A stretch of 64,000 bases of DNA, from NCBI RefSeq assembly GCF_029227915.1, contig NC_079888.1, positions 15,607,001 through 15,671,000 on the forward strand, read 5' to 3'. This DNA comes from Hydractinia symbiolongicarpus. Taxonomy: Eukaryota > Cnidaria > Hydrozoa > Anthoathecata > Hydractiniidae. The first letter of the stretch is position 1, and every line of letters begins with the position of its first letter. Position numbers and translations under genes: made by a program. Below are positions 10,340-38,619 of this stretch, piece by piece. Below the pieces are notes generated by a model that was not told where the DNA came from, did no database searches, and saw only the letters and a list, made by a program, of their open reading frames with translations.

Positions 10340-13138
10340 TTATTCCTCCTTTGGGGAAATCTGTTCGATCTCCGCAATTTGGACTTTTTTCGGGTTAATT
10401 TCGTTATCATCCGGTGTTTGTACCTCAATTTTCTTCGGAAGAAGTTTGTAATCTGTTATAACAACAGTGACGTCATCAACTGTGATTTCGATTTCTTCAG
10501 CACTACTTTTATCAATACTGAACTTCAAATTGCTTCTTAGGCTAACAAAGAAAAAATAAGGTACATACGTTGAATATGTCTAGGATAACAAGTTATAGTT
10601 GAAGATCTCGACTCATATGACACGGTTATTCTTCGAAATAGAGATGATATGTTATACTTATATTCATACGCTTTACATTATTAGTAATGTATTTACAGTG
10701 CAAACGGCACTCGATAAGTGATTTCAAACTTAACAGACACTACCTAATTATTAGAAAAATAGCAATATTCACAAACTTGTTTGTGACCACCAGCAGAACA
10801 AATGCCTTTGATACCACAAGTAAAGTAAACGCGTTTGAAACTACAACTAGAGCAAATGCGTTTGAAAACACAAGTAGAGCAAATGCGTTTGAAACCACCA
10901 GTAGAGCAAATGCGTTTGAAACCACAACCAAAGTAATCGCGTTTGAAACCACAAGTAAAGTAAACGCGTTTGAAACTACAACTAGAGCAAATGCGTTTGA
11001 AACTACAAGTAGAGCAAATGCGTTTGAAACCACAAGCAAAGTAATCGCGTTTGAAACCACAAGCAAAGTAATCGCGTTTGAAACCACAAGTAGAGCAAAT
11101 GCGTTTGAAACCACAAGCAAAGTAATGGCGTTTGAAACCACAAGTAAAGTAAACGCGTTTGAAACTACAAGTAGAGCAAATGCGTTTGAAACCACCAGCA
11201 AATTAATGGCGTTTGAAACCACCAGCAAATTAATGGCGTTTGAAACCACAAGCAAAGTAATCGCGTTTGAAACCACAAGTAGAGCAAATGCGTTTGAAAC
11301 CACAAGCAAAGTAATGGCGTTTGAAACCACAAGTAAAGTAAACGCGTTTGAAACCACAAGTAGAGCAAATGCGTTTGAAACCACAAGCAAAGTAATGGCG
11401 TTTGAAACCACAAGTAAAGTAAACGCGTTTGAAACTACAAGTAGAGCAAATGCGTTTGAAACCACCAGCAAATTAATGGCGTTTGAAACCACCAGCAAAT
11501 TAATGGCGTTTGAAACCACCAGCAAATTAATGGCGTTTGAAACCACCAGCAAATTAATGGCGTTTGAAACCACCAGCAAATTAATGGCGTTTGAAACCAC
11601 AAGCAAAGTAATCGCGTTTGAAACCACAAGTAGAGCAAATGCGTTTGAAACCACAAGCAAAGTAATGGCGTTTAAAACCACAAGTAAAGTAATCGCGTTT
11701 GAAACTACAAGTAGAGCAAATGCGTTTGAAACCACAAGCAAAGTAATGGCGTTTGAAACCACAAGTAAAGTAAACGCGTTTGAAACTACAAGTAGAGCAA
11801 ATGCGTTTGAAACCACCAGCAAATTAATGGCGTTTGAAACCACCAGCAAATTAATGGCGTTTGAAACCACAAGCAAAGTAATCGCGTTTGAAACCACAAG
11901 TAGAGCAAATGCGTTTGAAACCACAAGCAAAGTAATGGCGTTTGAAACCACAAGTAAAGTAAACGCGTTTGAAACCACAAGTAGAGCAAATGCGTTTGAA
12001 ACCACAAGCAAAGTAATGGCGTTTGAAACCACAAGTAAAGTAAACGCGTTTGAAACTACAAGTAGAGCAAATGCGTTTGAAACCACCAGCAAATTAATGG
12101 CGTTTGAAACCACCAGCAAATTAATGGCGTTTGAAACCACAAGCAAAGTAATCGCGTTTGAAACCACAAGTAGAGCAAATGCGTTTGAAACCACAAGTAG
12201 AGCAAATGCGTTTGAAACCACCAGTAGAGCAAATGCATTTGAAACCAAAGCAAAGTAATGGCGTTTGAAACCACAAGTAGAGCAACTGCGTTTGAAATGA
12301 CAAGTAGAGCAACTGCGTTTGAAATGACAAGCAGAGTAGAGTAAATGCGTTAGAAACCACAGGCAGAGAAAATGCGTTTGAAACCACCAGTAGAGCAAAT
12401 GCATTTGAAACCACAAGTAGAGCAAACGCGGTTGAAACCACAAGTAGAGTAAATGCATTTAAGGGCAGGCAGTATCTTCTAATACACAACTTGTGGCTAA
12501 GGGCGATCGACAAAAATAAACAATACTGCATATATACTATACCCTTTCTTGGTTGTGCTCCTCTTGCCAGAATTGCTTCTCTGATATTTTGACGATGGTG
12601 GAAGTGGTGGAATGGGCGGAAATGATGACGCAATTTGCTGAGCGACAAAACTGGCTGTCACGCGAGGCTTTCTAAGATACAAGATACAGAATATACAGAA
12701 GATACAGACATATTTGATTGGCCTCTATGTCGTAACAAGAGTTTTTTTGGCTTAAATAGATCAAAATTGTAGCTACTATACATCGTAAGCCTAACCACTG
12801 AACCTGCATCTGTAAAAATATTGCATTCTTCATTTTTAGAATGTCTAGATAGTCAGCCAGCTCCCAAACTAAAATCAGTTTATGTCATTTCGATCCACTG
12901 TGTGTTTCTAAGACCACTTTACACAAGCAGTTATTAACTTAGGCAGTACGATGCTCTAACCTATGATAGTAGTTGTAAGATGAAACAGTTAATTTCTATA
13001 TCATGCCTACCTTGTTGATGTTCCCTTTCTTGTGTTGCAAACTTCACATTTGAAGGCTTCACTCTTATTTTGTACAGTACAAACAGAACACTCCCAATAA
13101 TCATCCATCAAGTATATACTTCCTTTTTCTTGTTTAAA
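10340..13138 (-). CDS. RYBP/YAF2-like: RYBP/YAF2-like Polycomb (PRC1) subunit
   Basis: Exons on the minus strand: 13138-13011, 12671-12543 and 10541-10340 (stop), all GT-AG and in phase (ag|a, gg|c), giving 142 residues from the ATG at 13108 or 152 from the exon start. Exon 1 encodes an NZF/RanBP2-type zinc finger with the full W-x-C-x2-C-x3-N-x6-C-x2-C pattern, followed by RKGTST. Exon 2 continues with RKPR and FVAQQ, as in RYBP and YAF2, then a Pro/Ser-rich linker. Exon 3 carries the C-terminal segment [15 protein letters not shown], which in the family forms the hairpin that binds RING1B. Family knowledge: RYBP/YAF2 define variant PRC1 complexes, and the zinc finger binds ubiquitylated H2A. 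The second intron contains the 27-bp minisatellite. A further 5' exon cannot be excluded, because an acceptor (tatag) precedes exon 1. Confidence 0.87.
10790..12465. repeat. 27-bp minisatellite, about 60 units, with higher-order structure
   Basis: The unit is gaaaccacaagtagagcaaa plus tgcgttt, repeated about 60 times with little divergence; edge units after about 12255 are more degenerate. At least five unit variants (spelling RANA, KVNA, KVIA, KVMA and KLMA in one frame) are arranged in recurring blocks, so the array grew by block duplication. Because 27 is divisible by three and the unit lacks stops, frames stay open on both strands. It lies inside the second intron of the RYBP-like gene, so it is treated as non-coding. 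Confidence 0.97.
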
Positions 13139-14517
13139 CTATAAAATATGTATTTATAACCACTGTCCGTAGATCTACCTTAATGAAACTTATTTTCATG
13201 AGAATTTAATTTTGCGATTTAGCGAATCGAAATTTTGAATATATTTAGATTTTACGAGAATTAAATTTTAAAAAATGGATGATAAGTTTTGGGAGAATTT
13301 ATAATCTCTAATGGATAATATCCAGTACAAAATAAGGCATGTTTAATGTTAATTTTAAACTGCGTTTTTTCAAAATAATAACAAAATTCCAACCAGAGTG
13401 GATTCTGCATGATAGCAGGCCATTAAACAGGAGTCTTCAAACAGCACCATAGTACAAAACAATAAACAATGAATGAAGACATAAAACAAAAACAAACAAA
13501 AACACAACAAATAGGCAATTGAAACTAAATAAAACTTATTATAACGAAACTATCCTTAAACAGATAAATTTTAGAATGTTCCTTAATGAATCAAATGAAA
13601 ACTAAACATTTACACATGTTAATGGCGCCCAACACTCAGCTTTACACTGAACATTGCTGCTGTGGACCAGTCTATTGAGAGTGCCGGCCTGTCAAAGTTT
13701 CTCCTGAAACGAAATTGAGCAGCAGGATTGTTAATCTGAAGGCAAAGTGAGAAAACCCAGTCTAGTAAGGAGGCATCCTTACTAAACTGGGGTAAGGGTC
13801 GTAAGAGTCGTCAAACCCAAAGACATATTCTTATAATCAAAAATTATAAAATTTAATTCTTGCAAGAATTTATTCCAATGAATATACAGTAATGCTTAAT
13901 GTTAATAGACCATTTTTCAACCGCAGTAACGTGGAATTTAGCATTAGTGGAGTTAAGACCTCATATTTACAGTAGCATAGCATATAAAAAGTGTAAAAAG
14001 TAGAGGCTCTTAGAATTTAAGCGTATGCGCGTTTTGTTACTATTACAACTTGTTGCCCTGTTGATGTGTTTAAAATAAGTATATATCCACAGAACACATG
14101 ATTTGTCTAAATAATTGATTGAGTGTAGTGTTTCTAAAAAAAAATAAAGAGGAAAAAACAAACTGATACAATAGTAACAAAATCTTTTCTGATACAAGAA
14201 AATAAAGGAAAATAAACTCCAAAACATGCAAAATAAAATATAAAATATAATTAAAAAAACAACAACTTTAATGCAGATGTGTAAATATGTGTGTACTGAT
14301 AAGGGAAAAAGACACACTTCAAAATTGTAGGGTATATACGTACCGCCCTATTTACATGAAATTAACAGACATAAAAAAATAATCTATATAACCAGTAGAT
14401 ATAAAAGCGTTAAATGTTTCAAGTTTACAACATCTAACTCCTAAAAGCTATATAAAAATCTTTAAAAATGTTTGTTTGTTATCCTAATTTTTTAAAAGTT
14501 TAAAGTTTACTTGCTTC
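13139..14517. other. Intergenic / 5' flank of RYBP-like gene
   Basis: No convincing exon was seen. The sequence just upstream of the RYBP exon (13139-13165) resembles that upstream of the duplicated exon at 16052-16075, so the two copies share flank. The frame at 13967-14317 is AT-rich and unrecognised. Confidence 0.4.
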
Positions 14518-16051
14518 TTAAAATATGTTAACTTTGTTTCGCTTTATGTGATAATAAATAAGAAAAAAAAGGAGAATCAACACTGCCACAACAAGCGACA
14601 AACCACACCATGGGAAAGAGCTTTCAGTAGCTTTAGATCCATCTGTCTCATCGAATTGTTTCGCCTTATCTGACATTGAAGTTGATGTTTTTAAACTCGT
14701 GCATAGAACACCACCATGTCTATAGAGAGGTCTACGCGTCATCTTTTCGTCTGAAGGTAACGACAGTTTTGTGCAATGATAAGGCGATTGTGTGTTAGTG
14801 GGTTCAAATGAGCCTTTTGCTTTTGCCTTGATTTCTGTTTTAGGCTTCTGAAAATCAACTAAAACAATAGCAATATTGTGTCTTTATCACATTTGCATGA
14901 CCAAGAACGGAATGTCAATGTGTCTCATTACAGCTTGTGGGAGCAATATGTTAAATGTCAGCGTCCATACAGTTTGTGTTCAGTTGGAAAACAACACAGT
15001 CATGTCTTCAGTAGACAGTTAGCTATGACAAACTTAACTTGTACCTTCTGTACCTTTATAAGACAAAGGACTTTCATCAAATGTTGTTGATGATACAACA
15101 GAACTGTAAGTAAAGTAAATGCATTTAAAAATCATTGCAGTTTAAAATGACAAGTAGAGTAATAGGCTTTGCAAAACAACCTTTAAAGTAAGCTGATAAA
15201 CACAACAACAACAGACTGCTAATCAAATCAAAAAAGCAGACAATACCACATATATTTTTGCAACCCTTGCCTCATTGTGCTGGTTTTGCTGAAATTACTT
15301 CCTCGAAAATTAGACTGTGGTGGTAGGGGTGAAATAGGTGAACACGAAGATAATGCAATTGACTGGTCAACAAAATTTGCATCCACATGTGGCTTTCTAA
15401 AATATAAACTTTATAGATTTCTGTATATACAGTTTATACGAAAAAAAGATTATGCAAAAACGTTAATTGGGCTGACTTAACAATCGGAAAAGTTAAGAAA
15501 CCACAGGGCTTAACTGTTGTTAATGTGTTTTTAAAATTTGTAAATACACATTTAGTGACGTTTTAGCAGCAGAGGCAAAACTTTCAGGAAACATTAAGTT
15601 TGATATTGGTCAGAAAAAAATCATTCAAAAGGTTATCAACAGATATTGTTTTAATTTTATACTTTTTCCATTAGTTGCTCCTAACATCATAAACTTATGG
15701 AGATGGTAGCTAAGAGATAATTTAGTATAACATTTAACATTTTGAGAATCAACTTTTTAATTCCATTTATTTAGCATTAGCAAAAATTGCCATCGTGAAA
15801 TGCCATTTGCCTGATTCACGTTGGCTAACTTGTATTTCACATCGCCAATTTTTTTTTATATCAGCAATTTATATATTTTGTGTGATCACAACGAAACAGT
15901 TGATTTCCAATTATGCTTACCTTGTAGATGTTCCCTTTCTTGTGTTGCAAACTTCACATTTGAAGAACTTACTTTTATTGTGTACAGTACACACAGAACA
16001 CTCCCAATAATTATCCATCAAGTAATGCACTTCCCTTTTTTTTTGCACAAA
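14518..16051 (-). CDS. Predicted chimeric protein: RYBP-type zinc finger fused to LEM-protein membrane tail
   Basis: Exons on the minus strand: 16051-15921 (NZF zinc finger), 15396-15265 (RKP linker, FVDQS), 15103-15054 (short Ser-rich piece) and 14858-14518 (stop). The first two are duplicates of exons 1-2 of the RYBP-like gene. The last two are duplicates of the 3' part of exon 2 and of exon 3 of the LEM gene. All are open, and junction phases match (ag|a, gg|t, g|tt), giving about 217 residues from the exon start. The zinc-finger cysteines, Trp and Asn are all kept. Near the C terminus is one hydrophobic segment (about residues 183-203) followed by YYHIKRNK, as in the LEM paralogue. The RING1B-binding C terminus of RYBP and the LEM domain are both missing. 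The acceptor at 15104 (tttactttacttacag) looks good; the donor at 15264 (gg|gttgca) is weak. The fusion is inferred, with no transcript evidence. Alternatives are two partial pseudogenes or splicing to unseen exons. Confidence 0.6.
15105..15180. repeat. Degenerate remnant of the 27-bp minisatellite at a duplication junction
   Basis: Words such as aagtaaagtaaatgcattta and gacaagtagagtaa match units of the array at 10.8-12.46 kb. They lie exactly where LEM-derived sequence stops and RYBP-intron-derived sequence begins, marking the breakpoint of the segmental duplication. Confidence 0.7.
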
Positions 16052-17788
16052 CTATAAAATATGTATTCGTCAAAGTGTTTATAAAATATATTATAAATAT
16101 ACGGTAACGTTATAAGCTGAATGCATGAATATTTTATTATTATTGTTATTATTGTAGCAAGTTGTTACTTTGTAGACATATACTAACTGGTGACCTTGAG
16201 GTAAAGTGTTCGCGAAATGTTTTGAATTCATTTCCCAGCCTAAAGTGTGAATCGACCCCTTCTTTGTTCAGCAGGAAATTAGGATTGATATATGAAGTGA
16301 TTGTCTATTTGAGTGACTGTTGTGCTTTATATGCCTTCCACGGCACAATTAGGAGATTGCAATGTACTAGGACCCTCCTTCCCAGGACCCTCAATAATAA
16401 CAGTACCAATACAAAAACTCTGTAAATAATAAGAATCATAATAAAATTCCTTTGATATAAATAATGAATTAAACCTTGCATGTTTACAGAACCTATAGTC
16501 TATTAGCAACTTCTGGAAATTCTTGGTGGATTACAAAGATACACCAAGCACTGCAGAAAGCTGTATAAGATACAATTTATTTCGAGGCTGAAGTTTAAAG
16601 CATTCTTCCAAAATATTTTTTATGAACCAATTATATCCTTAGGCAGCTTTTACTAAATTGAATTTCTCGATGTTTTTATTGCTATTTAACAGTACATATA
16701 AATAACTTCTTCTATAAAAACATGTAAAGAGAGAAAACAAACATTACTATATTTATTAACATTTTTCTGTAATTATATACAACTAAGTAATCACTACAAC
16801 AACGGTCTGAAATAAACAAGAAGCAAAAGAACTTTAAAAATGCTAACAAATATGTAAATAAGGAAAAGGACACGGCAGGATAAAAATTGTTAACAGGTGA
16901 TTGGACACTAGAGTCATTGCATGTATAGACACAGAAAATTTACATTTAAATCATTACATTACAGGAGCTTGCAAAATGGTTGTTAAAATTATGCATAAGT
17001 AGATCTGTTGCTCGTGATGGACTGAAAATAAATCAGCTGCACAAAAGTTAGCAATTAGTATAAGCAAGTATACATGTTAAAATAGCTCATATATTAGCTA
17101 GGGCTGGACTTAAAAAATACACTGTGTGTTTTTCTTTTTTTTCATTTTTTTGATCCTCACATAATCAATAATTTTACATTGTCTATGTATACATGAACAA
17201 GTTTGAGTACTAAAATTGCACAACAGCAAACAATATTTTTTAGGCTAGCCAAAGCTCAGTAAAATTTCTCACAAACGACTTGGTACATAGTTTCTATTCA
17301 TAAAAAAAATCTATATATATTAACAGACATAAAGTAAGGTCATTGTTTCAAATCTACCACAAATACCTTAAATCATAAAATACCCTAAATACCTTAAATC
17401 ATGAAATTTTAGGTTTAACGCTCATTTAATTTTTGTGCATCTCTTATGGGTACAATAATACAAAAAACTTTTTGAGTCTAAAAATGTTAACATTTGCTTT
17501 ATACAAAGGCACTGATTATTTTAGGTGATTGGTGCTTAAAGCTTGATAGTATACGATTTACAACAATTACACTGATTTAATCGTGATTATGGATGAACTT
17601 AAATTTTATGATTATTTTTGTCTAAAAATTAAGTGTTATGAAACTTAAGTCATTTCTTTATTTTTTCCAGATTGGCGCTATTTCTTATTTCTGTATTTTT
17701 AGAAAAGAAAATGTTAATGCACATCAAATGTTTGCACAGCCAAATTCAGGCATATAAAAAAACTGAGTGTCTAGAAAATGTTTTGTTT
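16052..17788. other. Intergenic between chimeric gene and LEM gene
   Basis: No coding exon was recognised. A promoter and 5' exon for the chimeric gene would be expected here but cannot be pinpointed. The frames at 16162-16425 and 16327-16509 have no recognisable features. Confidence 0.4.
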
Positions 17789-20589
17789 TTATTTAAAAGT
17801 TCCTGCTTTACTTTCTATCGGTAATTTGCTAACTTCATTCTGCTCCATGTGATAATAAACAAGCACAACGAGAAGAACGCACACCAGCAAAACAACAAGC
17901 AACAAACGGCACCACAGGAAAGAGCTTTTTGTAGCCTTTTTTCCATCTGTTTCATCAAACTGTTTCACAGTGGCTGATAACGGAGATGACGTCTTCGGGA
18001 TAGTGCGGAGAGTACCACCAGGTGTATAGAGAGGTCTACGTCTCAAGATGTCATCTGAAGGAAAAGAGTGTTGTGCGTAACGATATGGTGATTGTGTATT
18101 AATAGTGGGTTCCGGTGGACTTTTTTCTTTTTTCTTGTTCTCTGTTTTAACCTTTTGAAAATCAACTAAAACAATAGCAAATCACATTGTGTTTTCATCA
18201 CTTTGCATGTAAAATAACTGCTTGCCAATGTGTCTCATTACAGCTTGTCGGCTCAATATAAGTTAAATGTCAGCGTCCATACAGTTTGTGTTGAGTTGCA
18301 GAACAGTACAGTCATGTCTCCAGTAAACAATATATAAGGTAACTTTTGTTCTAAACAGAAATTGTACCTTGATCAGATGAAGAATTGATGTCAAATGTTG
18401 CTGAAGATACAACTTCACTGTAATTTTCATCCACAAAATGCCCTTGAGAGTTTTCTTGAGATGATATAACTTTAGCTGAAATAAGAACAAACTATACAAA
18501 CAAGAAAAGGAACAAATTTTATTCAAGAACATTTTGTATGCGACTGGTGGGACAGAAAAAAAACAAAAACGATTATTGATAACTTCCTGAAATTGAAATT
18601 GTGTTGGAAAAACATTGCCTCTGCAATTTTTTTTAGAAAGGTCTTTTCAATGTTTAAGCAATTTCCGAGATCCGACACATATAAGAAAGGCAGAACACAG
18701 CAGAAGTTCTAAAAGACATTTAAGTTTTTTCTTAATACAACTAAATTTTGATTCCAAACATACTTTTCATACTTTACATTGGGTATTTGGTGAAACAGAA
18801 AAAATGAAAATAATTAGGTGTCTAAAATGTTTCATGATGCAGAAATTGAGAATGTCATAAATCTATACTATAATCACCTAAAATGATACTGCAAGTAACG
18901 AAACCTTATTTGATCTTGATGCTAATTCCTTTAAAAAAGGGGATTTAAATTATTTGATTTTGTTATATGTATGCTATTTGTTTTTATTCATAAATTTAAA
19001 AAAACAAATGTGTTTTCAAAACCAAAAAATAAAATTTACAAAACTAACACCATTTTAATTATAAACCCCTCAACGGTTTGTTATCCAATGTTGTTGAGAA
19101 TACAACAAAGTTCTAGCAAAGACAATGTGTTTGGTGGACGATCTAATTGGGCATTTTGAAGGTTTGTAGGTCGTATTTTGACTTTTGTTTTTTAAAAGCT
19201 TTGTGCTTTTAATATGCTTTGCATGTTAAGATAAAAATATTGTCACATTTTTCAGCCATTATAAATCTTAAGCAAACCAATTTTAAAACTTAGGCTACAA
19301 ACATAGATTTTAAGGAACCATGCTGAAGTCCAGCTCTTGCATTTGGCCATTGGGATGAATACGAATTGTAGGCTGACTGGCAACTAATTGTGCATTCCAT
19401 GTGCGCAAAGATGAGCTTGGCATTACGCAACGTATTGTTTATCAATACGGCAAAGCATAAGTGTATAACCACTCTGAAAGAATGAACAATTAATATTTGC
19501 ATGGAACTTGAACTGGATTATTTGAAAGTTTGGTATCACTTGTGTTTAAATTAAACTGTTGTGAAAAAATGGCATTTTTTATTTGGTTAATATCCCGAAT
19601 AACTTGACAAAGGTTAAATTAATTATTTCTTCTTTTTTATTTATTTCAAAACGAAATGGTTTTTATAAAGTAATGTTAGTTTTCATTTATTACAGACACT
19701 AACAAAAAAATATGTCATATGTTTATTATTTTATTATATGTATCTGTTTGTCTTTGAAACCTCATCCCAAGGGCATGCATCTTTTTGACATCCGGATTGC
19801 AATACTAACATGACCCTGGTACAGGCCTCTCGGTTCTGTGCAGTGGTTAGATAGACTGACATCAACAATTTATGCGTAAACACAGCAAGTTTAAAAGACA
19901 AATGATGGTTTTAGTCGTGAGTTTAGCTACAAATTTTGTTTTTACCCCTAAATATTGAAGAAATTTATAGTGTTGGATATTTCGCATAGCTACTGTAAAT
20001 AATATATATATTATGCAGCATATACTGTAAATATTTACAAGTGACAGGAAATTTATAAAGATAGCTATAACTATAACTTTATGGCTAGCTATAGGTTTAT
20101 AACTAGCTAGATCATATTCTTTTTGAGAATATATATGCAGATCAAAAACTATCTATTCATCTATTAGTTAGGGATAATCATACCACCTAAAGTACGTCCT
20201 TTAGTGTAGTAAGTAGAAGGTACCAGACAGCCGAATCCACAAATCAATAACATGTTCACATTCACAAGGAATTTTGCTATTTTAAGATGTCATGACTTAC
20301 CAAAGTTTGGGTAAACAGCTTTAGCAATGCCAGTGTATAGTGTCATATATGGACTTAATTAATAAGGAGCATTTAATTAACAGGAAATTTCAAAATTAAA
20401 ACTAATTTTTTGCCTTGGTAATTTCCTAGAACAAGGTAAAATATATCTGGATACATAATATTATACATCAAACTTACATAGTTTCTTCCTGTAAATACTT
20501 CTTGTAGTTGCAGTAACAGGTCCTGCATCTACACCATAATCTGCTAAAGCTTTTCGCATGTCACTATCAGATAAGCCAGCCACATCCAT
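17789..20589 (-). CDS. LEM-domain inner nuclear membrane protein (emerin/LAP2-like)
   Basis: Exons on the minus strand: 20589-20478 (ATG at 20589), 18475-18368 and 18165-17789 (stop), GT-AG with matching phases (t|ct, g|tt), giving 198 residues. Residues 1-37 are a LEM domain with the family's LSDSDMRKALADYGVDAGPV and TATTRSIYRKKL signatures. In the family this domain binds BAF (barrier-to-autointegration factor). A Ser/Thr-rich linker follows, then an Arg-rich RRRPLY motif (about residue 115) and a single transmembrane helix (about residues 162-182) near the C terminus, leaving a short luminal tail. This layout matches emerin, though emerin is longer (about 254 residues). The 2-kb first intron shows nothing notable. 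The last two exons have duplicates at 15.1-14.5 kb. Confidence 0.87.
18476..20477 (-). other. First intron of the LEM gene
   Basis: AT-rich sequence without a recognisable nested gene. Frames at 18615-18860, 18971-19159 and 19290-19502 have no recognisable features. Confidence 0.5.
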
Positions 20590-23150: not shown

Positions 23151-23670
23151 TGAGCTGCGGGTACCTGATGTATTCGTTTCACATTCACGCTACGGTGCAT
23201 CGTTAGCTCTTTTGTAGCCAAATCGAATGCGAGAAAGAATGAAAAAAAAAGAGAGAAAGAAAGTCTTGCTATTATTACTACTTCGAAGAAGGAGACACAT
23301 AGCCTGGAAAGAATGGAATTAACAAAATTACGAAAAAGAAAACGACTTTAGCTAGTGTAGGGATGGAATATAACCAGACTTTTTAAAAATCGCGGTCAAA
23401 CTCTTATAAAAATTATCAAGCACAATTTTGCTTGTGACGTCACAACTTTTCGTCACGCTCCATTGCACAAAAATGCGCTGATCATCAGCAAAAATCCACT
23501 GATCATCAACGCATGCGCTGTGACATCATACGCAAGTCGGTGTTGAATCATGCATATCAAGGGGTACAAAGATGAGTAGGGGAATAACTGTGTTAGTTAG
23601 GCAGAATGAAATCCTCTGAATTTGTTGAAATCTGTATATAATAATAAAGAGAAGATGAGTTGATTTAAGA
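23151..23670. other. Intergenic flank of Polinton-like relic
   Basis: No gene was recognised. Nearby direct repeats of ctgatcatca (about 23478-23510) are present. No terminal inverted repeat for the following element could be identified here. Confidence 0.35.
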
Positions 23671-26160
23671 ATGCAATCAGCAAACTATATTGCACCGTGT
23701 CGGTACCAGTAACGGCAACTCGTGACGCTCTTGCCGATCGATTGCAGAGTGTGAGGGATACTGTTGCCTTCTACTATAACAAGGCAAGGGAACAAATTTC
23801 TGGAGGGACAGCGCTTCACGACGAGATCGAACAGGAGGCAAGGGAAGATATTTAAGACCCCGAGGACGATATCCAGATGCTGGAGGATGGAAATAGAATC
23901 AGAACATGCGTTTCAACAAGCATCTAAACCAACCTCTAAAGGACGCTATTATCCAAAAAATTACACCACACGTGGACATGCGCGTTAAGGTTGTGTACAG
24001 CTTTAGCTGTCATATTTACCAGGGTGGAGGTGGTGTATCTTTGTATCACAAAACTAAGAGCTCCAGATCGATGTCAAGTATAGCGGAAATTGAAGCGTTC
24101 ATTGAAGAATGCGAAATGAAACGTCTCGATTTGGAGGATCACGAGTTCTGGACTAAGGCTTATTTACCACCCACTAGAACCACCCAGACCCTAGGAGCAT
24201 GTAAGGAAAAATTATCTTCGATCACGTACGGATCAAGGTGATAAGTACGCGTGAACCTCTTTTGGGATGCAGCCCTCTCCCGGGCTGGTTGCGAAAAAAA
24301 AGGGGCATCTACTCCATGGATAGTGAATATGCCGGAACGGATAACCTATGTTTCTGGAGATGCTTGGCTGCAAGAGATAGGGTTAACGTAAAACGAGGAA
24401 TCGAGTTTGTAACAAGGCCTTTAAATTACCGGAAAACCTCTCATCTAACATACTTTTTGAGACATGTTCCGATAAGTGTTGGTATTGCCGATAGTTTGAA
24501 TAGTCGCCCGACGTTCATTGAGCACGAAAATCCCAAGATCCTGGTTTGTGGAGGAGCTGGAAAAGAGGCATGCCCTGGGCCTGTGGCTCGCGAGGACTTT
24601 TATAGCCGTCTAAGTGGGAAAAACACACTATCCAGCGAGGAGTACGAGACATTCTGCGCCGAGTTTTACAGGCGCAGCTGTATCACCATGATAGACTGGT
24701 TGCGTGAGTACAATTTAGCCGATGTGGAACCATTCATTGAAACCGTGGAAAAGACGAGACTGCAGTATTACGATGACGAGATAGATATTTTGAAGGACAC
24801 GGTCAGTATTTCGGGGATGTCGATGCGCTACGTATTGAACAAGTCTCTACGGTTGAACCCCAAGCTATAGCTATACGCTCCAGGAGACCCATGCAGGCAT
24901 AGGTGTAAGGACTCTTGTTATAGCAGGACTTGTAAGTCCTGCAAGGAGGTACGGAAACATGTGAAAAATGTACGGGGAATAAGGCCTACGACCTTTTGCG
25001 GACGGGGATGGTGGGTGGTATTGTATTGATCATATTCTGTAGATACCACAAACGAGACGTGACGGGTATCAGATCTCACATCTATAAAGAACCAAACAAA
25101 TGCAAGACCATTTTAGGCTACGACGCAAACATGCTTTAACCAAGCACACTCCTACAGGGCTTTACTTGTGGGAAGAAACAGTTGATCAAATTGGCCACAC
25201 GGACATTGGCACATAACTTAGAGCTACTGGCGCGGGTGTGATGCATGGATTGTTGTTTGGGTTTGCCCAGGTTAATATCGAGGTACATGAGTATCTGCGT
25301 GACAAATGCGGCGAAATGACTCTCCTGTTCGTCGTCAAGGAGATACCTGATGATCAGAGCCCTGAGAACATGCATGAATACTTAAAAACTACGGTCCGCG
25401 AGCGCTTACCGGATACACATAAGCTTTTGGGTTTGATGAGAGCTAAAAAAATCCTACTGCATATCCCTGTGCTAAAATGGTACCTTAACCATGGGCTGAA
25501 GGGTACTGCCTTTCACCAGTTCTTCAAGTACGCCCGGGGTAAGCCCTTTGCCTGTTTCCCGGAAGAGATTGCTGATGCACGACGACGGGCTGACAAGCGT
25601 ATTGCGGGGGATAAGGCAACTCGTTCTACGGCAAGATGATTGAAGATTTGGCAAGGCATGCAAATACTACATTAACGAGGGATGAAAATGAGGTTGACGC
25701 TGCTCTGCAAAGCTTGTACCTTGAGGACCTTGAAGAGATTGGGGATGCGTATGAGGTAAGAAGGGGAAAGCACAAATGTACTATCGATAGAGCCTACCAG
25801 TGTGGTATCGCGGTGTATCAACTCGCGAAGCTGCGCATGCTTGAATTTTATTATGATTTTCTGGACAAGTACGTAGATCGTCGGGACTGAGTATATTTAC
25901 ATGGACACCGACAGTGCGTATTTTGCTATCGCCCCGAACTACTTGACGAGTCCGACAAAGAGGCACAAAACTGGCTCGTCACTGATAAATACTCGAGTCG
26001 AACAGGAGGGTTTTTCAAAGCGGAATTTATTGGTTTTCGGATGATACCGTGATCATACCCTGATGAGCAGGGTATGATCACGTACAAACAAAACAAGCTC
26101 GGGCTCTCGGCGTTCTACGACAAAAGAGTTGTACATGACGATGGTGTACGTACCTCTCCG
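23671..26160 (+). pseudogene. Family B DNA polymerase of a Polinton-like element (broken)
   Basis: Successive frames on the plus strand give collinear pieces: 23671-23855, 23906-24237, 24238-24870, about 24870-25240, 25238-25639, 25636-25890 and 25890-26160. Polymerase signatures are the motif A region GYDAN (about 25118), followed almost at once by a stop, and the intact motif C YMDTDSAYFA (about 25893-25922), whose two aspartates bind catalytic metals in this family. Further on, DKYSSR and FKAEFIGFRMI belong to the conserved C-terminal part. Several frameshifts and in-frame stops separate the pieces, and a block is missing after about 26047, where a perfect hairpin lies. Such polymerases replicate the element by protein priming. 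This copy cannot encode a full enzyme. Confidence 0.8.
26048..26082. repeat. Perfect 15-bp hairpin at a polymerase deletion junction
   Basis: cgtgatcataccctg (26048-26062), loop atgag, and cagggtatgatcacg (26068-26082) form an exact inverted repeat. It sits where polymerase codons are lost, so it probably arose during the deletion by template switching. Confidence 0.9.
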
Positions 26161-26248
26161 CTTGTGTTGTAAATATTTTTGAATAGCGAGGTTTTTTAAA
26201 AACTGTCCAAAGTTTTGTAAAGGTGGTACGTTGCAAAACAAAAACAAT

Positions 26249-26742
26249 ATGGAGGGGACCAGGAAATGCACGAACTGTAGCCAAACCCTACCACTATACA
26301 TCTTCTGGGTGATCCAACGTGACGGACAACGAACAAGGCAATGCATCAAATGCCTTGTCAATAATAGGTCGTCACAGATACGTACCAAGTGCCCACATGA
26401 AAAACGAAGACGCCAATGTCTAACATGCGATCGCCCTGCTTATCAGTATAGCTTAATTCTAGCCAGGATGCCTTTAATTGTGATATAGAGATAGCATCCC
26501 GGGAATATATAGGGTGCGATATCATAAGATTCATGAGGCACATCCAGGCCCAGTTTCGGGGTGGGATGAACTGGGGAAGCCGAAGGCAGTGGCAGTTTGA
26601 TCACAAGGTGCCACTAAAGTATAGGGAGAATGGAGAATATCCTAGCGAGGAAAAACAATTGAAAAGACTGCACTACACCAACATGCAGCCCATGTCGGTT
26701 TCAGATAACAAAAAGAAGGGCCGTCGATATATCTCTGAGTAG
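26249..26742 (+). pseudogene. HNH-type zinc-binding protein of Polinton-like element, frameshifted
   Basis: The ATG at 26249 opens a Cys-rich N-terminal half: KCTNCSQ, then CIKC, KCPHEKRRRQCLTC, four CxxC or CxC-like pairs that look zinc-binding. This frame ends at about 26488. The continuation is in another frame to 26742 and carries WQFDHKVPL, then LHYTNMQPM with downstream N and K/R residues, matching the H-N-H nuclease pattern (DH..P, N). The protein would be about 160 residues. One frameshift around 26440-26530 separates the halves. A nuclease role is inferred from the motif. Confidence 0.65.
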
Positions 26743-26866
26743 AATGTAGCCTGGCGCGGTTGATCAAACACACTTGCTATAAATGGAAGTGTGTTTGTAT
26801 ATTGCAGTAATTCTACCCTATGTGATAACACTACTAATCTATCTAAAGTTTCAACATACAATAAAG

Positions 26867-27238
26867 ATGTCTGATATCGACACAGCCTCTGCGGAATCTT
26901 TTGAAAATATCGAAAAGCTCGCGAATCAACGCCAGCCTTTTAAAGAAACCCTGCGTAAGGGCAAAGGACATCTCCTACCCAGGAAATGTACAGAAGGGTT
27001 CATTAACAAGGCCCCCTATGAGGTGGTAGAAAGGGTACATGCCGAGTACGTACAACGTGAGCTTCAAGAGAAAGGGGAGAAGACGTCAAGGGCGTTGGCT
27101 ACCCATGCCGTCTTCCTTTATGCCAACCTGGTTAACAATTTTGTAAATTTAGATAGCGTTGAGGCCCTGAAAAATGATATCAATAATGACCCTATTATTA
27201 AAGACTCTTTCGCAGACTTGGGCATACTGGTCTACTGA
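26867..27238 (+). CDS. Polinton-like element protein of unknown function (123 aa)
   Basis: A complete ATG-to-stop frame of 123 codons, helix-rich and charged, with no signal peptide or membrane segment. It lies between the HNH-type gene and the ATPase in the same orientation, so it is probably an element gene. I do not recognise a named domain. It is one of two frames in the element that look undamaged, though lying in a decayed element it may be non-functional. Confidence 0.5.
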   Translation: MSDIDTASAESFENIEKLANQRQPFKETLRKGKGHLLPRKCTEGFINKAPYEVVERVHAEYVQRELQEKGEKTSRALATHAVFLYANLVNNFVNLDSVEALKNDINNDPIIKDSFADLGILVY

Positions 27239-27594
27239 CTGACGTTGAACACGAGTTGGATCCCATTGCTATTGATGCGAAAATTCGAGGTGTTTAACAG
27301 AATGAGAATTACCTGATTCTCTACGATATTTTCACATAAAACATTATACCTAAATATATCGAACTTATTGGGGATAGCCCCGAGAAGGCAAGGCTCGTTG
27401 AAAGGTATCGCAATGCACTACAGTGTTTGCAGGGTAAATTACTATATACTCCACCACCCCTCTAATATTAGGCTCGAGGGACCAAGATCTGCCAGGGGTC
27501 CTTGCAAAACAAACATGGAGGCGTGTTAATTTGTTCAGGATGTGCCGCCCTGTACCCTAGCATACATGATCGAAAGTGGAGCAACTATTAGTAA

Positions 27595-27960
27595 ATGGAC
27601 ACTATTAAAGATCCACATACGGCAATCTTTACAGGCCCAACGTCTTGTAGCAAGACACAACGTGCTTTGGATCTACTTGAAGCCGAATACAGGCACCACT
27701 ATCATAACATAGTCATCCTGTGCCCGACCATACGGTGGAAGAGTATCTACCTCGAAAGGGCCTCATTATGGAGGGATAACTATGTATTTAGGATAGACCC
27801 TGGGAATGAGTTGTTTGAATGGATATCGAAACTATCCTCATTGCTGGCAGGGGAGGAGAGTCTTTTCGGTTGATGACGTCATAACCGATGAAAGCCTCGA
27901 TAAACGTCGACAATCCTGCTTGAGAGAGCCTTATACAAGACACTTCGTTTGTCGGGCATG
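27595..27960 (+). pseudogene. Packaging-type (A32/FtsK-like) ATPase fragment
   Basis: The frame begins with ATG at 27595. Within 20 residues comes a Walker A motif, FTGPTSCSKT (consensus GPTxxGKT, with Ser in place of the usual Gly before Lys). NIVILCPT and an acidic hydrophobic run follow. A frameshift near 27860 leads into a short continuation with VDDVITDES, the expected Walker B region, which ends in a stop at about 27958. The full enzyme is usually over 200 residues, so the C-terminal half is gone. In Polinton-like viruses this ATPase pumps DNA into capsids. Confidence 0.75.
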
Positions 27961-28048
27961 ATGAAGGTGACATCACCCCACGTGAAAGAAGGGGACTTGA
28001 CCTCGAGCCTCAGACGTTAAGGGATAATTTAAAAACCTGAAAATTAAG

Positions 28049-28660
28049 ATGATCCTATACGACAGTGAGATTAACAAGGCAGAGTGCAGGGTGAAAGAAC
28101 TTGAAAAGCAGAAGGTTGAGGCGGACGAAGGACAGCAATCGAACCTTGAGAGGGAAATAGAAAAGGCGAAGAAAGAGATTAAGGTTCTGAACGATAAAAA
28201 GAAGGCCATAGGGGAAGCACATGGTATACTATCCACTGACATATACCCCCAGCTGAGACATATCAAAGATACGCTGTTGAAAATCGCTGGAGATAACACA
28301 ACTCTGCTTGAAAAGCTTAAGATACTCTTCAAAGAGCAGCGGATAGCGAGTATCGTCTCTGCTATTGATCTATTAATAAGCACCATTTTACTCTCCGTTA
28401 CAGGGGGAAGCGCCAGGGGTGCTGTAGGAGGAATTGCCGCGGCCGGTGGTGAAAAAGGTTTTGTAGAGAAGCAACTTGAAAGGCTTGGAAACTTTCTCAA
28501 ATACCTAGCAGGCAAGACAGGTGTTGCGTTACCCGGGATCATCGGTACGGTAGTCTCGTTTTATCTGAGGGTAGCGTCAACCATCGTGAAATATGCCGCA
28601 GAACATCTGTACATATCTATCGCAGGAGCTGCCGGGCTTATCGCGCTATACGTGAGATAA
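28049..28660 (+). CDS. Polinton-like element protein: coiled coil plus hydrophobic domain (203 aa)
   Basis: A complete frame of 203 codons. Residues about 5-60 are a Lys/Glu-rich coiled coil. Residues about 105-135 (including a Gly/Ala-rich SVTGGSARGAVGG) and 155-200 are hydrophobic and would insert in a membrane or pack in a particle. A second, diverged and broken relative lies at about 29930-30330. Its consistent place in the element suggests a structural protein, but the function is unknown. Confidence 0.55.
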   Translation: MILYDSEINKAECRVKELEKQKVEADEGQQSNLEREIEKAKKEIKVLNDKKKAIGEAHGILSTDIYPQLRHIKDTLLKIAGDNTTLLEKLKILFKEQRIASIVSAIDLLISTILLSVTGGSARGAVGGIAAAGGEKGFVEKQLERLGNFLKYLAGKTGVALPGIIGTVVSFYLRVASTIVKYAAEHLYISIAGAAGLIALYVR

Positions 28661-28674
28661 TAGGCGCCTATTTT

Positions 28675-29564
28675 CTAAGCCATATATATGCAAGGATGAG
28701 ACCGACCCCCCGTCGTTATTAATGCAGCCTTGGTATCTTCGTGTTGATTTTGTGGTTGTTGTTTGGGTATGGTGGGTGGTATGGTATGTTCAGGAGGTGG
28801 TATGACCTGTATATCGGATGTATGTATGGGAGGTGTAATAGGTGTTGTATGCCTAGGGGGTGATTTGGCAGATGCCAAATACTTGGTAGCATGCTTTGGG
28901 GGTGTAGGTGGTATGGTATGTATAGGAGGTGTGGCATGTCGCACAATAGGCTTGTTATTCAGGTCAAGCGGTATACCGATCATTGCATTGGCCGGTGAAA
29001 TCATAATGTTGTTGTTATACCCTACAATTTTTCCTATGCCTAGGTTTTTATCAGATGGCAGCATATTCACGTGGTGCATGACGGCAAAGTTCACTGGGGT
29101 CCAGGCATATTGAAGTACTTTTTGGAACTCCGTAATATCCCTACTTACATTTTCATAACGTTCTACCATAGCCTCACATTTCTGTACTAGAATTTGCCTT
29201 GTTGTGTAGTTGTCCGCAACGGTCGCTAGAAGGGATGCTTTGGCCCCTGCCTGGGACTCCAGCAATAGACCACATAAACCCAGATACTCTCACTCAGCTT
29301 GGTCAGGCCCTCTGACGTCAGACCTTGGCTTGTGGGCATAATAAACTTGGCCCAACCACCGTCAACCCGCCGCCACCATCTACCATCCGTCAATGACGAC
29401 ACGACAGCCTTGAACTTGTAGAGGCTATTAGGATCTGCACCGTACTCGCGGCATACTTGGGCGTATCCGGAAATCGAGTATGGGTTTTTGTATTGTTCAA
29501 AACCATCGTCATAGGGCATGGGGACCTTCATTCTTGCCAGAATACGCTGCTGGTGATAGTACAC
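28675..29564 (-). pseudogene. Polinton-like element Pro-rich protein, frameshifted
   Basis: Two minus-strand frames are collinear. The N-terminal frame (29564-29270; first ATG at 29531) starts MKVPMPYDDGFEQY and contains a Trp-rich DGRWWRRVDGGW. The C-terminal frame (about 29268-28675) continues LESQAGAKAS, a helical stretch, then a Pro/His/Thr-rich tail with repeated PPIHT and PPKHA motifs. The shift between them lies around 29275-29285. It is transcribed toward the other element genes. The function is unknown; it might be a virion structural protein. Confidence 0.6.
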
Positions 29565-29899
29565 GTGAAACTTAAAAATTTAATTGATAAGGGGTACAGA
29601 ACCCGTCATGTGGTTGGCACATATGCCCAATGCCGTATGATTACAAGTACGTGCAAAATAAAGTGCGAGTAAACACTTTGGGAGATTCAGATGATGCTAT
29701 TTGTTGGGAATGTTCTAGAGGAGGCGAAAAACCTTTTGTCAGAGACTTTCTTTAACGGAGTGAGAACGAAAACGAAGAGGGTCAAGTGATGAACAATAAA
29801 CCCTGCGTGATAACACAAAGCTACTTCAGGTTAAGTTTATTTCTTACGATACGTCAGGTTGTTCAGGCAAAAGTTGAAGAGACTAACGGTAAAAAAACC

Positions 29900-30350: not shown

Positions 30351-30693
30351 AAATTGGCGTAGTTCTGAAAACTTTCTGACATTAATAAAAAAAAAAGACG
30401 GAGCCATTGCGATCCTCTGAGATGGCTTATGAGCAAAGAGGGAGCGAAACCTTTGACCACATGAAGCCACGGGGCTTAACTAAACGACGCACGAACTCCT
30501 GCGGCTTAGTTCCTGTTGCAATTCAACGTTGAAATGTGATACAACCTTGGCAAGAAATGAAATGATAACAAACTTGCTATACATGTTACAATAAGATGCT
30601 ACATATATACAAGTTAAAAAACATACGTATACGCAGAGGTGAAAAAAGAAAAATTTTGTACGGTGATTCTCTACGGTAAGACGGTTATGATAT

Positions 30694-31415
30694 TTAGGTT
30701 ACACCATTTCTAAAGAGATATAGTCGCTGTGAGCCTAATTGGTCGTTTAAGGTAGGTCTCTTGAGGGCGATTACAGACGCTTTAATGTTCTTTCGTGTTC
30801 TTGTGTCAAATGGTGCATTTAATAGAATTTTCCAATTGAGAGCGTGTGTTGGGTATTCCCTTAGGTGGTTTGCAGATTCCGATTTTTTGTTCATAGTTTC
30901 GTGCTCTTTCCATCGTGTCTCTACATTTCGTTTTGTTTCACCAATGTAATTTGCATTGCACGTGCATACGCCTCCGTAAATTTTGCCTGCTTGATGGGGA
31001 TTTTTGTTCTTGACGTAAAAAAGATTTTTGACTTTCTTTGTCAGCCATTTTATGCCAATATTGATCTTGTGGTTTGTATAATCCTTTAGTTTTTGGACAA
31101 AACGTGTCACAAACTTTTCATTTAAATCACAAAAAAGAATCTCCACAAGGATAGACTTCTTAGATTCCTTAAACAGGAACTCCAGAATAATCAGATCCTC
31201 GGGATGAGATGATATCTTTTCTTCAAACTGACGAATTACACTATCCGTGAAGCGTACTGGGAAACCAGCATGGTTAAATTTATCTCTGATGTTTTTCTTT
31301 TCTTCATCAAAATTCATGCCTGTGCGATACTATCTGTTTAAATCACCGTTGATCGCATTTCGTTTATATCTCTTCGGGATTTTTAAAGTCCAGTGTGTAG
31401 GTAACTTGTTTAATT
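30694..31415 (-). pseudogene. GIY-YIG endonuclease domain of Penelope-like element
   Basis: The frame opens around 31415 with a PTHW...KIPKRYKRN segment, has one in-frame stop just before the ATG at 31317, then runs 207 codons to 30694. The nuclease motif is visible as KIYGGVCTC then NANYIGETKRNV, followed by TRWKEHE with the conserved Arg and Glu, and HLREYPTH. In Penelope-like elements this domain cuts the target DNA. The reverse-transcriptase core that should precede it is lost. Confidence 0.8.
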
Positions 31416-31737
31416 ATCGATGAACAGAGGTGATAAATTTATTTTCTTTAATGATCGAATTGGTGTCCAAGAACTTTGGAGGATTTACTTCAACTGTAAA
31501 ACGAATGTTTTAGTGGTAGCCTTTGATTAGATAAATAGATGATCTGGTTAGTTGGTTACTCGTCTATTTATCACATCATCCACAAATCATTTATAGAGGA
31601 TTGGTTCGGTTGGTTGGACGATTTCGTTCCAAGTTTTGTCAGGAAGATGTTGGAAAAATGAGGTTTCAAATAATCAGAGATTACCTGAGTAGCATTCTAC
31701 GTACAAGTGCCACTTTGTGCAATAAGTGGTCGAAATG

Positions 31738-32375
31738 TTAAAGATTAGAAATGTTCGAGACATCTTCAAATTTATGTGTTTTCGCCGTGCCGTAAAGTAT
31801 AGCGGGAGTGTTAGATGATGTACACATTCGATCATAATTCTCGTACTTCTTGAAGTTGCGATAAAGAAAATCTTGGAAATATTTGAGATCTTTAAGTGTG
31901 TTATCCGATGATTTTGCGTAGACTCCTTTCTCAATTTCTTCGTTAATCATTTCTTTCAGTTTATGTACATAGTCTATCTTGTCATTGATAACAACACGAG
32001 AGTCTTTATCACCCGGGATGACTACGATGCTTTTTACTTTGACGAGACGTTTCAGGTTGCTGTAGGCAAAATCTTTCGAGTTATAGATGTTTTTGGTGAG
32101 GATGTCACAGTACGCTCGTAAGAATTCGTGATAATCACCTTTTCGTTCGTTAGAAATGTTGTCATTGCTTAATTGAGCAAGTGATTCTAGGCTTGCAGCG
32201 ACGTTTTTCTTCACATGTTTATTTTTGTCAACAAAACTGTACTGTAAGTCGTAACTCAACTGCATCAGTTCTTTGTTGGTGAGTTCTTTGGAAGAGAGAT
32301 TGATGATGGGAACCTGAGTTGTTTGGTTCAGAACTTTCCAGTTCTTTGTTTTAAATGACGAACAACGAAATTGAC
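31738..32375 (-). pseudogene. Reverse-transcriptase N-terminal part of Penelope-like element
   Basis: An open frame of about 210 codons, first ATG at about 32225, with sequence also open upstream to about 32375. It contains VVIPGDKDSRVVI and, near the end, ILYGTAKTHKF, which matches the start of the Penelope reverse-transcriptase domain (family form YG-x-x-K-x-HK). The YxDD catalytic core is absent. Confidence 0.75.
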
Positions 32376-32439
32376 GAGTACGATAAGTGCAGTATTAATT
32401 TTTTCCTCCTTTTTGACGAATTGACCTTGTAAATAAAAA

Positions 32440-33160
32440 CAAACAAGTTACCTACACACTGAACTTCAAAAATCCCGAAGAGATATAAACGAAATGCGAT
32501 CAACGGCGATTTAAACAGATCGTATCGCATAGGCATGAATTTTGATGAAGAAAAGAAAAACATCAGAGTTCAACTTAACCATGCTGATTTCCCGATACGC
32601 TTAACAGATAGTGTAATTCGTCAGTTTAAAGAAAAGATATCATCTCAGCCCGAGGATCTGATTATTCCGGAGTTCCTGCTCAAGTAGTCAAAAAAGTTTA
32701 TCCTTGTAGAGATTCCTTTTTGTTATTCAAATTAACAATTTGTGACACGTTTTGTCCAGAAACTAAAGGATTTTACAAAGCACAAGATCAATATTGGCAT
32801 AAAATGGCTGACAAAGAAAGTCAAAAATCTCTTTTACATCAAGGACAAAAATCCCCAATAAGCATGCAAAATTTACGAAGGCGTATGCACGTGCAATGCA
32901 AATTACATTGGTAAACAAAACAAAATGTAGAGACACGATGGAAAGAGCACGAAAATATCAACAAAGATTTGGAACCTCTGCGTATACGTATGTTTTTTAA
33001 CTTGTATATATGTAGCATATCTGATTTCTTATTTTATTGTAACATGTATAGCACTGATGATGGCTCAGCTCAATATAAATATATTTTCAAAATTGTTGTT
33101 CTCATTTTATCTCATTTCATAACTAAATGGCTAATTTAAACACAACCTTGGCAAGGTTTT
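32440..33160 (+). pseudogene. Inverted second copy of the GIY-YIG end
   Basis: On the plus strand the same NFDEEKKNI, DSVIRQF and KIYEGVCTCNANYIG stretches recur with in-frame stops. After a KSTKIS-like segment the sequence jumps to the 3' flank shared with 30545-30650, so about 200 bp of the nuclease domain is deleted. Confidence 0.8.
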
Positions 33161-37893: not shown

Positions 37894-38619
37894 ATATTAG
37901 ACTAGCTACTAAAGTCACACTGGATTAGTTATGATGTTAACATTTAACTTAAATTAATTGTGAGTGTGACATGAACTACTGAATTTTAGAACAGAGTTTT
38001 TAATGAGCCAAGCGTTCTCTTTCGTTATATTTTTTGAGTTTTGTGTGAGCAAAAAGCTAGCATAACACTTCTAAGGAATTGCACTGCTGGACAGCTGTGG
38101 CATGTGTGTGTGGGTGCATGCAGTCAGGCTTCTTGTGCAGTTTCCTGTATTTCATTTTTATTAATGTTGACATCAGCACAAAAATGCCAACTTCAGGTTT
38201 TGGTATATATTAAGCCATAACTTTGTAATGTAAATTTGGACATTCAATATTTTATCCCCTTCTTAAGCTTTATCCAATGTACTGTCAGTTTTTTATCAAG
38301 AAAATACATTCTATATACATTTTAATAGGAAAATCAGTTTGCAAGCTCAGTTATGACAGAGGTGTCAAAAGATTGCAATGTTTTCGTGTTTATTAAAGGG
38401 CAACAAAAATAAAAAAAGACCTAAGAACGTATCAAAATTTCATATCTTGTTATTTTTCTCTTCACAGTAATTGCTCTTTGTATTTCACAATAAAAGTAAT
38501 TGTTATTGGGCAAAACATCCAATTTTTACATATATAGTTGCTAAACAACCAGCAAAGCAATTTACGTGAAAAATCTCTACCCTTCTAGCCAACTGAGGTA
38601 TGTTTGTATATTTTAGAGT
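37894..38619. other. 5' flank of SUV39-like gene
   Basis: No clear coding exon was found. The sequence before the start codon (tattttag|agtATG) looks like a splice acceptor, so a 5' exon may lie here or further upstream. Confidence 0.4.

Follow-up and report, generated by a model that had tools for sequence, protein, structure and literature searches.

A putative RYBP–LEM chimeric gene lying between its two parent genes in Hydractinia symbiolongicarpus

Gene order and exon structure at the locus

The window analysed here is a 64,000-nucleotide stretch of the Hydractinia symbiolongicarpus genome, spanning positions 15607001–15671000 of contig NC_079888.1, which contains an RYBP gene and a LEM gene on its minus strand and, between them, copied parts of both. 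The parent RYBP gene (10340–13108; exons 13108–13011, 12671–12543 and 10541–10340) was identified by Pfam and homology, with matches to YAF2_RYBP (PF17219, E 7.8e-9) and Zn_ribbon_RanBP (E 3e-8), and RYBP chains of the PDB match it at E 1.9e-22. The parent LEM gene (17789–20589; exons 20589–20478, 18475–18368 and 18165–17789), identified in the same way, carries a LEM domain (PF03020, E 1.2e-14); several ends of its exon 1 are open, and the one used here best fits the donor consensus. Read along the minus strand, the LEM gene comes first, followed by duplicated RYBP exons 1–2, duplicated LEM 3′ exons and the complete RYBP gene, so that a chimera with the 5′ part of one parent and the 3′ part of the other stands between the two on a single strand. 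The earlier note had proposed that duplicated RYBP exons 1–2 are followed on the same strand by duplicated LEM 3′ exons, which is confirmed by the coordinates and by the alignments to the parents. The LEM tail copy is 73% identical to its parent over 638 columns (E 2e-97), and the copy of the RYBP exon 1 region is 87% identical over 176 columns (15893–16067 against 12982–13154; E 8e-53). The duplicate relation of the fusion to both parents is far beyond chance.

The fusion comprises four open exons that would encode 206 aa in frame, at the positions given in the earlier note; their predicted borders rest on homology, reading phase and splice signals. Exon 1′ (16018–15921, 98 nt) encodes the RYBP-type zinc finger and ends in phase 2. 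Exon 2′ (15396–15265, 132 nt) has a weak donor and a weak acceptor, with alternative in-phase ends at 15250 and 15247. Exon 3′ (15103–15054, 50 nt) derives from the 3′ portion of LEM exon 2 and is preceded by a new acceptor, and exon 4′ (14858–14518, 341 nt) is the LEM tail with the C-terminal hydrophobic helix and the stop codon. All four lie on the minus strand, as do the fusion intron (15104–15264, 161 nt), which is what remains of RYBP intron 2 as far as the minisatellite, and the copied LEM intron (14859–15053). Intron 1′ contains an interspersed repeat (15753–15886). All three junction phases listed in the earlier note (ag|a, gg|t and g|tt) are present. However, the first and third are inherited from the parents, which leaves the 15265/15103 phase as the only independent one, and its match is a one-in-three event.

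Splice sites were scored with a simple, generic weight matrix, and percentiles refer to the 3446 minus-strand GT sites of the window and to 3219 AG sites. By this measure, the donor at 15265 ranks at the 56th percentile, compared with the 86th for the parent, and the alternative donor at 15247 at the 83rd. The acceptor of exon 2′ reaches the 49th percentile versus the parent’s 92nd. Use of any of the donors 15265, 15250 and 15247, as well as skipping of exon 2′, preserves the frame in every case, and variant splicing would yield proteins of 162, 211 or 212 aa beside the 206-aa form. A higher-scoring donor at 15299 loses the frame, and leaving out the 50-nt exon 3′ leads to an immediate stop.

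Upstream of the fusion, the leader and the adjoining stretch (16019–16067, minus strand) lie within the 87% identical region and contain an AG at 16052–16053. The 16–19 nt around this AG are identical in both copies, and farther upstream there are only weak AT-rich matches, one of which is left with low-complexity masking. The AG itself is ordinary, at the 59th percentile of AG sites (parent 51st). Trans-spliced leader addition is reported in Hydractinia (PMC11067881) and an operon in Hydra (PMC3273482), which makes trans-splicing at 16051 a possible candidate. The AG region could thus be a trans-splice acceptor, a cis acceptor or part of a core promoter. Candidate poly(A) signals are found downstream of the fusion at 14272, 13874 and 13857.

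Origin of the chimera and of its splice acceptor

Homology switches from RYBP to LEM at a single, clean junction on the minus strand (15103–15109), where RYBP-side homology ends at 15108 and LEM-side homology starts at 15109. An origin of the chimera by tandem duplication is well supported by this arrangement. In an ancestral LEM–RYBP pair, a block reaching from within LEM exon 2 to within RYBP intron 2 was duplicated in tandem. A single event of this kind, copying LEM 3′ and RYBP 5′ sequence together, yields exactly the order observed. Its product is a full chimeric unit, likewise on the minus strand, in which RYBP exons 1–2 form the 5′ part and the last LEM exons the 3′ part. Chimeras formed by tandem duplication are a known kind: tandem duplications in Drosophila yakuba make chimeric genes from the 5′ part of one gene and the 3′ part of its neighbour (PMC5460883). 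Whereas those chimeras were studied as a population sample, the duplication in Hydractinia is old, with a Ks of about 0.67 between the copies, and the frame has been kept.

An assembly artefact is unlikely, because divergence between the copies amounts to 7–29% in the stretches compared; elsewhere it is larger or there are many gaps. We also searched the H. symbiolongicarpus genome (480.9 Mb in 76 contigs) with positions 14518–16051 and obtained 21 matches, namely the fusion itself, the two parents and 18 places that touch only the repeat in intron 1′. A dispersed gene family was rejected on these grounds, and the genome search found no further copy of the fusion. The RYBP protein matches five places in the genome, the parent’s three exons and the fusion’s two. 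The LEM protein matches six, consisting of the parent’s three exons, the fusion tail and two weak matches to the N-terminal part (C8, E 3e-4; C1, E 0.67).

RYBP intron 2 contains a 27-bp minisatellite of 61 copies (10800–12460), the last unit of which lies at the junction copy. Aligning the fusion intron (15109–15281) with RYBP intron 2 (12389–12559) yields 61% identity (E 2e-5), rising to 95% in the last 21 nt (20/21). Under stricter scoring only these 21 nt stand out, with a score of 19 against a best of 15 in 300 shuffles. On the LEM side, the junction begins in the codons AAT TAC AGT, and the TACAG within them is the acceptor of the chimera. The new acceptor therefore combines a pyrimidine tract from the end of the RYBP intron minisatellite with an AG from within a LEM exon. 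It ranks at the 97th percentile of the 3219 AG sites, beside the 98th for RYBP exon 3 and the 97th for LEM exon 2. The exon 3′ donor, GTACAG, is retained.

A breakpoint farther upstream, in LEM intron 1, is disfavoured, as the stretch before the junction fits the RYBP minisatellite better (20/21 nt). The whole fusion intron aligns with LEM intron 1 at chance level, 144 of 300 shuffles being equally good. A short part of LEM intron 1 (19071–19132) does align across the junction, with a score of 25 against a best of 20 in 300 shuffles. This segment weakly resembles the beginning of LEM exon 2, as a third copy of it (71% identity to 15064–15126), readable as a short exon-like stretch, and may share its history with the new exon 3′. 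As a separate observation, the minisatellite at 10800–12460 has a period divisible by three and therefore carries long open frames, of 536 codons on the plus strand and 572 codons on the minus strand.

Selection, gene conversion and competing readings

The earlier note had suggested comparing synonymous and non-synonymous change against both parents. This comparison gave an omega of 0.36 (0.24–0.53) for the whole fusion, with a Ks of 0.67 over 204 codons. Omega is 0.24 (0.11–0.45) in the RYBP part and 0.43 (0.25–0.72) in the LEM part. A pair made up of a neutral copy and a fully constrained one should show an omega of about 0.5 on average. The RYBP part falls under this benchmark, and the LEM part would also fit a neutrally evolving duplicate of a parent under constraint. 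In both parts, the protein alignment shows in-frame codon gaps and no others. In neutral simulations with indels, the LEM part stayed intact in 3, 16 and 43 of 2000 runs at d of 0.32, 0.15 and 0.08; the corresponding counts for the RYBP part were 20, 103 and 200. The indel rate was 0.019 per site at d 0.32, half the intron-copy rate, and 0.0095 at d 0.15 and 0.08. Substitution-only neutral runs left both parts open with probabilities of 5e-4 (d 0.34), 0.015 (0.15) and 0.049 (0.10). The neutral runs take the parent as a proxy for the ancestor and assume base composition and kappa. The frame has remained open longer than is usual for a dead copy, which suggests that the chimera may be a real new gene; maintenance of the frame by selection is supported, though not proved. 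Judging from the DNA sequence, we lean slightly towards the view that the chimera is a selected, expressed gene for a membrane-anchored RYBP-type reader that lacks the RING1B-binding part.

Alternatively, the chimera could be a non-functional relic, unexpressed or untranslated, whose frame stayed open by luck and by gene conversion from the parents. The weakened splice sites of exon 2′ would fit a relic, as would the pace of change in its finger. Over the 49 residues of finger and loop, fusion and parent differ at 12; the human residue matches the parent only at 5 of these, the fusion only at none and neither at 7, which marks the fusion as the faster-changing copy. A high-identity tract at exon 1 points in the same direction. 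Exon 1 and the leader are 93% identical to the parent, and Ks is 0.28 in exon 1 versus 1.26 in exon 2, which suggests gene conversion from the parent besides selection; exon 1 may have been refreshed in this way. However, the frame and ORF of a relic seldom survive the neutral runs, and both the RYBP-part omega below 0.5 and the restriction of gaps to in-frame codons in both parts argue against decay. We regard a relic as unlikely.

The copied exons could instead serve the parents, exons 1′–2′ as alternative RYBP first exons spliced to exon 3, or exon 4′ as an alternative LEM end. Splice forms joining copied to parental exons are likewise open, and both joins are in phase, as homology predicts. 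This explanation nevertheless gives no account of the 50-nt exon with its strong junction acceptor and retained donor. By exon lengths, LEM exon 1 is out of phase with the 50-nt exon, and a fusion transcript requires no skipping of nearer sites. We consider it improbable that the copies serve the parents. A short zinc-finger protein without a membrane tail, from a transcript that terminates or continues unspliced past exon 2′ and meets a prompt stop, would fit the weak exon 2′ donors and the read-through product (12 residues after MRQ, 88 aa in total) but is very improbable, since the 161-nt fusion intron contains no AATAAA or ATTAAA and the open LEM-derived exons would be left unexplained.

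The copied LEM intron is 85% identical to the parent’s, compared with 75–77% in the neighbouring exons. Within it, the stretch 14875–15017 aligns with 18186–18329 at 84%, with windows up to 92%, above the adjoining exons. This stretch may be a conversion tract, a regulatory element or an unknown RNA. A structured RNA was rejected there: Rfam gave no match at gathering thresholds in the whole window, the best of six matches up to E 10 in 14860–18480 scored 22 bits against a cut-off of 48, and the predicted folding of either copy is slightly poorer than that of shuffled sequences (z +1.27 and +1.21).

Predicted protein, relatives and possible function

As a selected, expressed gene, the chimera would give a spliced transcript for a protein of 206 aa, in which an RYBP-type zinc finger is joined by a low-complexity linker to a C-terminal membrane anchor. 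The four zinc-binding Cys are kept in the fusion and the membrane helix is preserved (residues 177–195; mean Kyte–Doolittle 2.68, parent 3.13), as the earlier note had stated. Its claim that neither the RYBP C-terminal hairpin nor the LEM domain is present also holds, with PF17219 and PF03020 matching the parents and not the fusion. The fusion matches an RYBP chain of the PDB at E 1.2e-11; against Pfam PF00641 its finger scores 24.1 bits, below the cut-off of 27, with the parent at 33.2.

In the human RYBP–PRC1 structure (PMC11257959), T31, F32 and I43 contact ubiquitin, R47, R53 and R56 contact the acidic patch, and F39 contacts H2A. The positions of T31, F32 and I43 read T, V, V in fusion and parent, with Thr alone identical to human, and the Thr-Phe pair plus hydrophobic residue of ubiquitin-binding NZF fingers is not found here. 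The proposed binding of ubiquitin is weakened accordingly: T31 is kept, but F32 and I43 are Val, in the parent too. The nucleosome-facing positions R47, R53, R56 and F39 are R, R, H, F in the fusion and R, R, R, F in the parent. With T31, F39, R47 and R53 retained and Val at F32 and I43, the fusion keeps most of the residues that face the nucleosome, including two of the three acidic-patch arginines; on the side that faces ubiquitin, the parent was already unlike human RYBP.

Compared with RYBP/YAF2, subunits of variant PRC1, the fusion shares the zinc finger, the KGTSTRKP loop and the structure of exons 1–2. However, the PF17219 RING1B motif is missing, R56 has become His and a membrane helix stands in the motif’s place. 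Small LEM proteins with a single C-terminal membrane helix, such as the emerin-like ones, share with the fusion this helix and the preceding basic, low-complexity stretch, here copied from the adjacent LEM gene. Since the LEM domain is absent from the fusion, no BAF binding is expected. The RanBP2/Nup153 fingers likewise have Val at the RYBP F32 position, in CLVRN/CLVQN, where the sequences here read CTVQN/CTVHN; the residue before that Val is thus Thr, not Leu, and the loop after the finger is that of RYBP. A literature search for a rule of ubiquitin-versus-Ran specificity in such fingers found none, and no such rule was relied on.

The simplest reading of the protein is a membrane-anchored, ligase-free RYBP-type reader, with a possible placement in the inner nuclear membrane. 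A C-terminal membrane helix, as found in inner nuclear membrane proteins, is present as judged by hydropathy only, and tethering of chromatin to the nuclear envelope is suggested by analogy with the architecture of the LEM parent. The finger and the arginine loop that follows it would bind nucleosomes, perhaps favouring H2A-ubiquitylated ones, from the nuclear envelope or the ER. Recruitment of the ligase is not expected because the RING1B-binding hairpin is absent, and the protein would hold chromatin at the membrane or compete with RYBP–PRC1. That the selected, expressed reader keeps nucleosomes with ubiquitylated H2A at the nuclear envelope, or protects them there from variant PRC1, is a tentative and rather doubtful extension.

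In the literature collection searched there was no match for RYBP with Hydractinia, and its papers on RYBP with LEM, emerin or the nuclear envelope, or on cnidarian Polycomb, mention no such fusion in the portions available. The locus is notable as an old, single-copy, open chimera between both its parents in a laboratory cnidarian, with an acceptor formed by a repeat and an exonic AG. If expressed, it would be a natural separation-of-function RYBP, with the chromatin-facing part freed of the ligase-binding part and tied to a membrane, and would allow a direct test of retention of Polycomb-marked chromatin at the nuclear periphery. Were the envelope reading true, a direct physical link between the Polycomb mark and the nuclear periphery would have been born by one duplication.

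Other features lie elsewhere in the window. A cluster of long ORFs at 23600–29600 looks by eye to be of Polinton/Maverick type, although Pfam gave no match for the five ORFs tested. At 30575–33053, an inverted repeat pair (30874–31411 and 32977–32441, 91% identity) lies over an ORF whose GIY-YIG match is below threshold (E 2.6e-4); this may be a Penelope-like element. Finally, an exon at 38617–39243 carries a Pre-SET motif (E 7.9e-20) and belongs to a histone methyltransferase gene.
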